Origin: a bacterium
GTDB lineage: Bacteria > Sumerlaeota > Sumerlaeia > SLMS01 > JAHLLQ01
Assembly (NCBI GenBank): GCA_020444065.1
Contig: JAHLLQ010000001.1
Coordinates: 992,001-1,056,000, forward strand
Direction: 5' to 3'
Length of the DNA: 64,000 nucleotides
The notes below the pieces were generated by a model, which did no database searches, had not been told where the DNA came from, and worked only from the letters and a program-made list of their open reading frames with translations. Position numbers and translations under genes: made by a program. Shown piece after piece: positions 54,711 through 55,621 of the stretch; positions within the stretch are counted from its first letter, which is position 1; each line of letters opens with the position of its first letter.

Positions 54711-55571
54711 TTATCGAAAGAACTGCAGGACGGCCACGACTGCCGAGATGATAACCAGGAAGGTGATGAGTTGAGTCGCCGACTTCCTGTCCATTTGGAG
54801 GCGGGAGACCTGGGAGATCCAGAAGACCCCGCAGATGTAAGGCAAAGCGGGGGTGCCCACGCCTGTCAGGCCGGCGAATGCGATGGCGATCAAGAGTCCA
54901 AGGACCGCCGCGATCGCCGTCCGGCGGAGGGGTAGGCTGAATCGCACGGCCAACCCGAGCAGCAGCGCCATCACGAGCGCGTCGGGAAAACCGAAGAAGG
55001 GCTGGACGCCGAATGGGCGATCGGGATTGGAAGAGGGCAAGGTCACCATGACGTATTCGGCGGCCTTGGCTCCGCGATCGCTCTCCATCATGGCTTTCGT
55101 TGGGCCAAGGAAGACGCTGTAAACGTCGATGAAGATCAGGATCACAAGGACCGGGATAATCCATTCGCGCTGCTGGAAACTGCGCGCCAGTCCGAACCCC
55201 AGCGCGATTCCGAAGAGCATCAGCAGCGGGCCCTGGACAAGGAGACGCCACTGGGTGGGCAAGAAGATGCCGCAACCCAGCAGGGCCGCGAAGGAAACGA
55301 CGCCGAGCACAATCAGTGTATTGCGCGAAGGCGCCTGGAGCGCCAGGAGCGCCATGAGCGCAAGCGAGACGGTCAGTGTAATGACCAGTGGAAGGAACTG
55401 CGCAACGACGTACAGCCAATAGGGCAGCGGGTTTATCCACATCGGCCCCAGTGGCGGCCCCCAGACGAGTCCGGTGAAGAACCAGGCCGCAAACCACAAC
55501 GCAATCGCGCTGCCCAAAGACAACGGGATCCTGCGCTCCTTGACGATCTCCTGTTCAGTCATGGGTTTCAT
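54711..55571 (-). CDS. Presenilin/SPP-like intramembrane aspartyl protease candidate
   Basis: 286 aa with about nine hydrophobic helices. Three motifs of family A22 occur in the right order and spacing: an Asp in a helix (D149 in IFIDVYSVFLG, where presenilin/SPP have YD), a second Asp at the start of the next helix (D197 in FFGFPDALV, where they have GxGD), and PALP at residues 241-244 in a later helix (PAL motif). A hydrophilic loop of about 35 residues lies between the aspartates, as in the family. The Tyr and middle Gly of the motifs are changed, so activity must be tested. It starts 21 bases past the hairpin that follows pilQ. Confidence 0.6.
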   Translation of the reverse strand: MKPMTEQEIVKERRIPLSLGSAIALWFAAWFFTGLVWGPPLGPMWINPLPYWLYVVAQFLPLVITLTVSLALMALLALQAPSRNTLIVLGVVSFAALLGCGIFLPTQWRLLVQGPLLMLFGIALGFGLARSFQQREWIIPVLVILIFIDVYSVFLGPTKAMMESDRGAKAAEYVMVTLPSSNPDRPFGVQPFFGFPDALVMALLLGLAVRFSLPLRRTAIAAVLGLLIAIAFAGLTGVGTPALPYICGVFWISQVSRLQMDRKSATQLITFLVIISAVVAVLQFFR

Positions 55572-55591: not shown

Positions 55592-55621
55592 CGCCGCCTC
55601 CCTGTTTCGAGGGAGGCGGCG
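55592..55621 (-). terminator. Hairpin after pilQ, probable terminator
   Basis: Perfect 12-bp stem (CGCCGCCTCCCT and its complement) with loop GTTTCG. It is 26 bases past the pilQ stop on the minus strand but has no U-run, so termination may be partial and the presenilin-like gene may receive read-through. Confidence 0.55.

Follow-up and report, generated by a model that had tools for sequence, protein, structure and literature searches.

Proteases of the presenilin/signal peptide peptidase (SPP) type, the A22 proteases, are characterized by a YD motif and a GxGD motif, which hold the two aspartates on the sixth and seventh membrane helices, and by a PAL motif. To our knowledge, enzymes of this type are usually thought to be missing from bacteria. 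SPP cleaves type II substrates. The membrane topology of SPP is reversed with respect to that of presenilin (PMC7768045), and the archaeal homolog PSH carries PPL instead of PAL (PMC2947513). The gene described here lies in a bacterial window (the whole stretch of 64,000 nucleotides that was analyzed). The gene probably belongs to a bacterial family, so far without a description, that is homologous to A22 proteases, and within this family it evolves fast. Asp149 (D149) and Asp197 (D197) would perform cleavage within the membrane.

The gene occupies positions 54711..55571 of the minus strand. Its open reading frame starts with ATG at 55571 and encodes a membrane protein of 286 amino acids with nine predicted helices, which we annotate as a presenilin/SPP-like, putative intramembrane aspartyl protease according to its homologs and its fold and profile matches. 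The plus strand has no open frame at 54711..55571. The first putative catalytic aspartate, D149 (codon at 55125..55127, minus strand), is found in FIDVYSVF, where it is preceded by Ile148. The second, D197 (codon at 54981..54983, minus strand), is found in FGFPDAL, and codons 241 to 244 (54840..54851, minus strand) encode PALP, corresponding to the PAL motif. The preliminary description of a 286-residue membrane protein with these three motif positions is thus borne out by translation and alignment.

The window protein alone showed no meaningful match in Pfam, NCBIfam or the PDB sequences, and a search of genome contigs with it returned zero matches, while a profile built from an alignment of four sequences recovered three loci in genome contigs. 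The curated A22 models (PF01080, PF04258 and PF06550) did not match the window protein. Comparison with PF06550 and PF04258 had been suggested in the preliminary description. No curated family claims the protein. PF06550 detected nothing above cut-off in the window's own genome and one relative, nor across 386 bacterial genomes. None of the 50 family members passes any curated A22 cut-off; the only A22 family touched is Pfam Presenilin (PF01080), weakly and by five of the 50 (best E-value 0.0026). A search of viral contigs and plasmids with PSH uncovered a single haloarchaeal plasmid gene, which was too divergent to help. We found no description of such a bacterial family in a search of the open-access literature. 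The term “bacterial presenilin” appears in one paper, as a passing mention in a review of lipid binding that describes no bacterial family.

Four distant homologs were identified in the window's own class by a search of 61 genomes. All of them carry G-[FMI]-G-D and the three complete ones carry PALP, the fourth ending at a contig edge. The relatives include two records named Candidatus Sumerlaeota, and UBP4. When 386 bacterial genomes were searched with an alignment profile, 17 proved to carry the gene; 12 of the 17 are among the about 350 genomes that do not belong to the window's class (Candidatus Sumerlaeota). By profile search, the gene was also present in six of the ten genomes of one phylum, and it occurs in 106 of 113 genomes (46 of 47 genera) of another class, nearly always as a single copy. 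Within the class of the window, 5 of 39 genomes carry the gene, a patchy distribution, and the four other genomes of the window's taxonomic family lack it. Bacterial examples had been described earlier as rare. The present family is not: it extends through many bacterial lineages, is widely encoded in that other class and has simply gone unlabelled. Two copies from the class that has the gene as a core component (L076 and G466:C1:92205-93080) contain one in-frame stop each, TAA and TAG, inside the matched stretch; either the match overruns the end of the gene or the gene is broken.

The 50 homologs are 16-26% identical to the window protein. Among 17 members, the invariant columns were D149, G156, P179, G194 and D197; among all 50, only D149, G194 and D197. 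Pro241 is kept in all 49 members that reach this column, Ala242 in 45 of the 49 and Leu243 in 43. The first aspartate is followed by D-x-[FWY]-[SL]-V, and then by G-P-[TS] in most members. Both putative catalytic aspartates and the PAL motif are therefore the fixed core of the family. A Tyr precedes the first aspartate in nine of the 50 members, the window protein having Ile at this place. The motif around the second aspartate is G-x-A-D in 32 members and G-x-G-D in 15, since position 196 is Ala in 32, Gly in 15, and Thr, Ser or Pro in one member each, the Pro belonging to the window protein (G-F-P-D). In the aligned sequences the absent second Gly of GxGD is thus a family trait, and it is only by its Pro that the window protein stands apart. 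Accordingly, GFPD does not mark a diverged subfamily, as had been considered at first.

Similarity to A22 proteases was evident when profiles of the family were compared. Searching the PDB sequences with the 17-member profile gave the C-terminal fragment of presenilin-1 (PSEN1; 2kr6) as the top match (E-value 0.01), with GLGD and PALP in register. The 50-member profile gave a weaker match (E-value 0.44) with PSEN1 still first, probably because the GxAD-rich class dominates the larger profile. GABA-receptor matches of the 17-member profile (E-value about 0.09) reflected helix composition and disappeared with the larger profile. By hhalign, the family profile aligned with human SPPL2a 406-486 (91%, score 42), the PSEN1 C-terminus (83%, score 37) and an SPP fragment (61%, score 33), and all three matches span the region from GxGD to PAL. 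None of the local shuffles (N = 60) reached these scores, the shuffle maxima being 18-21. Whole PSEN1 scored 41, which was attained by none of 200 shuffles. Archaeal PSH scored 24.8 with both aspartates in register; none of 200 shuffles was as high, by a thin margin (best shuffle 23.7). As decoys, 25 membrane ORFs scored 17.5 or less against the profile. The PSH, PSEN1 and SPPL2a fragment sequences used for comparison were checked against the PDB, and the SPP fragment was checked solely through its match to SPPL2a.

AlphaFold2 models were obtained with 17 homologs (pLDDT 81, pTM 0.81) and with 50 homologs (pLDDT 86, pTM 0.87), the latter containing nine membrane helices. Helix 135-155 contains D149 toward its outer end, and helix 195-210 contains D197 close to where it begins, so that the two aspartates are on adjacent helices as in A22 proteases. 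The PAL motif is at the start of helix 243-253. In Foldseek searches of the PDB with both models, only SPPL2a and PSEN1 appeared among the top 11-13 matches (probability up to 1.00), and the next, unrelated match had a probability of 0.09. The same matches showed TM-scores of 0.33-0.45, large rmsd and E-values above 0.001, that is, a poor whole-chain superposition. This is likely due to a shifted topology, as four helices precede the helix of the first aspartate, versus five in A22, and the PAL helix is followed by one more, so that the aspartates are in the fifth and sixth helices.

No transporter family was matched; a clear match of that kind is what the preliminary description had named as speaking against its reading. 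The conserved aspartates and PAL, the alignment with SPPL2a, SPP and PSEN1 and a model nearest to SPPL2a/PSEN1 folds favor the diverged A22 relative over the look-alike, the two options that had been left side by side. We consider it highly likely, from these comparisons, that the family is homologous to presenilin/SPP proteases. Since the window protein lacks YD and GxGD, has its aspartates in other helices than A22 proteases and stays below the HMM cut-offs, we do not classify it as an A22 member. We assign it instead to a related family of bacteria whose mode of action is probably that of A22.

The charge distribution of the loops suggests the orientation in the membrane. Averaged over the 50 members, the number of Lys plus Arg is 1.9 in the N-terminus and 2.0, 1.7, 2.8 and 3.1 in loops 2, 4, 6 and 8, compared with 0.4, 1.1 and 0.3 in loops 1, 3 and 7; loop 5, which is long, has a net acidic composition. 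This bias places the N-terminus inside, makes the helix of the first aspartate run from inside to outside, and brings both aspartates and PAL close to the outer face. The family is thus predicted to have an SPP-like orientation, opposite to that of presenilin. The two aspartates, which the model puts on neighboring helices close to the periplasmic side and next to PAL, would bind and activate a water molecule and cleave single membrane helices inside the bilayer. Given the predicted SPP-like topology, N-in membrane helices would be the likeliest class of substrates, for example remnants of signal peptides or proteins with an N-terminal anchor; leader peptides would be compatible with this orientation as well.

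Catalysis is likely in the family, judging from the conserved residues. For the window copy itself, we lean slightly toward an active enzyme, and it may be slow or altered, with Pro in place of the second Gly of GxGD. Its place in the tree of 50 members is unsettled, as long branches meet, and its end branch (3.22) is the second longest. Pro196 and this very long branch make the activity of the window copy uncertain. It could be homologous to A22 and yet a pseudoprotease or a nearly inactive enzyme, which has kept the fold and both aspartates, lost the flexible Gly and evolved fast. The restriction of Pro196 to this protein, the branch length and the absence of the gene from the four other genomes of the window's family agree with such a loss. 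However, relaxed selection would not favor the retention of both aspartates, Gly194 and PALP in so divergent a sequence, and most family members do without that Gly. We therefore regard the loss of activity as unlikely, although it is the strongest competitor of the active fast-evolving protease.

Some members of the family may have signaling roles. A fused copy in genome G167 (L041 4303-7701, minus strand; 1,132 amino acids) combines a presenilin-like domain with an extracytoplasmic region, a HAMP domain and a guanylate/adenylate cyclase. In genome G053, a gene for a GAF-GGDEF diguanylate cyclase starts a few bases after the presenilin-like gene (L036 6858-8102, plus strand), and a near-identical genome of the same genus shows the same GAF-GGDEF arrangement (L037 5222-6466, minus strand). 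The HAMP-cyclase fusion and the GAF-GGDEF neighbor suggest that some members may be sensors, and the family as a whole could be regarded as an integral-membrane sensor or ligand-binding module that uses the A22 fold to feed signaling enzymes without cutting. However, stand-alone copies with unrelated neighbors are the majority, the two invariant intramembrane aspartates with PAL point to catalysis, and the fused copy is divergent (its second motif being GVSD, with both aspartates kept). A non-cutting module thus seems distinctly improbable as an explanation of the family, for which proteolysis is the preferred reading.

The gene is flanked by the two neighbors previously noted, both on the minus strand. 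Upstream is the PilQ secretin gene (PF00263; 55647..57680), the last gene of pilMNOPQ, which we do not count as part of the system. Downstream is a gene for a DUF900 alpha/beta hydrolase (PF05990; 53580..54650) with a lipobox-like N-terminus. Between the pilQ stop and the gene start, a stable, perfect 12-bp GC-rich hairpin without a strong T tract (55592..55621, minus strand; z = -3.4) is probably the pilQ terminator or a processing site, judging from the sequence. None of the relatives examined showed the association with the DUF900 hydrolase. A single relative also has pilQ close to the gene (G014, about 1.2 kb apart), and no shared operon was found around 16 relatives. Others adjoin truA, dapF, Lnt, Pta and so on, all but Lnt being named by eye from the sequence. 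The genome has a separate prepilin peptidase PilD on contig G000:C3 and matches to SppA-type peptidases at three loci. The prepilin peptidase ORF (L099; G000:C3:231500-233500) encodes 514 amino acids with a long C-terminal extension, which by eye resembles the N-terminal domain of GspE/MshE, an unusual fusion. With the weak pilQ linkage, the hairpin between the genes, and the separate PilD and SppA-type loci, a specific pilus role is unsupported, and the earlier suggestion, drawn from the location next to pilQ, of a role in clearing pilin-like remnants is not upheld.

The same evidence bears on the idea of a type IV prepilin peptidase (A24, likewise of the GxGD type) that has diverged and serves the adjacent pilus operon. 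Proximity to pilMNOPQ here and to pilQ in G014 is what speaks for it. However, PF01478 does not match the window protein, the profile scores only 13, a decoy level, against the PilD of the genome, the hairpin separates the gene from pilQ, and other relatives are located away from pilus genes. We also know of no PAL motif in A24 enzymes. We therefore give this idea very little credence. Equally improbable is a chance look-alike, an unrelated permease with coincidental Asp, Asp and PAL, which would fit the lack of database matches for the single protein and the modest TM-scores, but not the family-wide invariance of just these residues or profile and fold matches to A22 only. The family of putative A22-like proteases is probably a general membrane-protein clearance or signaling protease and not a pilus enzyme.

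A broader proposition, which we advance only tentatively, is that intramembrane aspartyl proteases of the presenilin/SPP type might have a bacterial branch that is ancient and widespread but has escaped labelling. This branch would be core in at least one class, have G-x-A-D as the usual motif and lie nearer in profile scores to eukaryotic SPPL/presenilin than to archaeal PSH. If true, this proposition would alter the accepted distribution of A22 among the domains (eukaryotes and archaea) and hence the question of presenilin origin, as eukaryotic presenilins or SPPs might have bacterial, not archaeal, roots. Bacterial relatives would be simple, single-chain and genetically tractable models of intramembrane aspartyl proteolysis, and would reveal whether catalysis truly needs the second Gly of GxGD. 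In the class where the gene is nearly universal, its physiological role would be directly testable by knockout.

Among the known systems, PilD (A24, PF01478) resembles the bacterial family as a membrane aspartyl protease with a GxGD motif and in the pilus genes nearby, but has no profile similarity to it and is encoded separately in the genome. Archaeal PSH (MCMJR1, PDB 4hyc, PF06550) is likewise a prokaryotic single chain, with D-x-x-S-V after the first aspartate, G-M-G-D, and both aspartates in register. However, its score is weaker than that of PSEN1, PF06550 misses the bacterial family, and PSH lacks the conserved G-P that the family has after the first aspartate. Presenilin (A22A, PF01080) shares GxGD-F-I-F and ALPALP in register, and presenilin-1 also shares the D-x-x-x-V-L-x-P-x-G-P spacing after the first aspartate with L073-like members from the class of G043 (YDMFLVLTPVGP versus YDLVAVLCPKGP). 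Unlike presenilin, the bacterial family has the opposite predicted orientation and only sub-threshold HMM scores, and lacks the large acidic loop with the autoproteolysis site, and no gamma-secretase partners were seen. SPP/SPPL2a (A22B, PF04258) differs in its five helices before the first aspartate, where the bacterial protein has four and an additional one after the PAL helix, in its YD, in its second Gly, a position that most members of the bacterial family fill with Ala and the window protein with Pro, and in being recognized by Pfam. SPP/SPPL2a is nevertheless the best Foldseek and hhalign match of the bacterial family, with which it shares two aspartates on adjacent helices, G-x-x-D, PAL, an RF dipeptide after the helix of the second aspartate, and a loop between the two aspartates that is predicted to lie outside.
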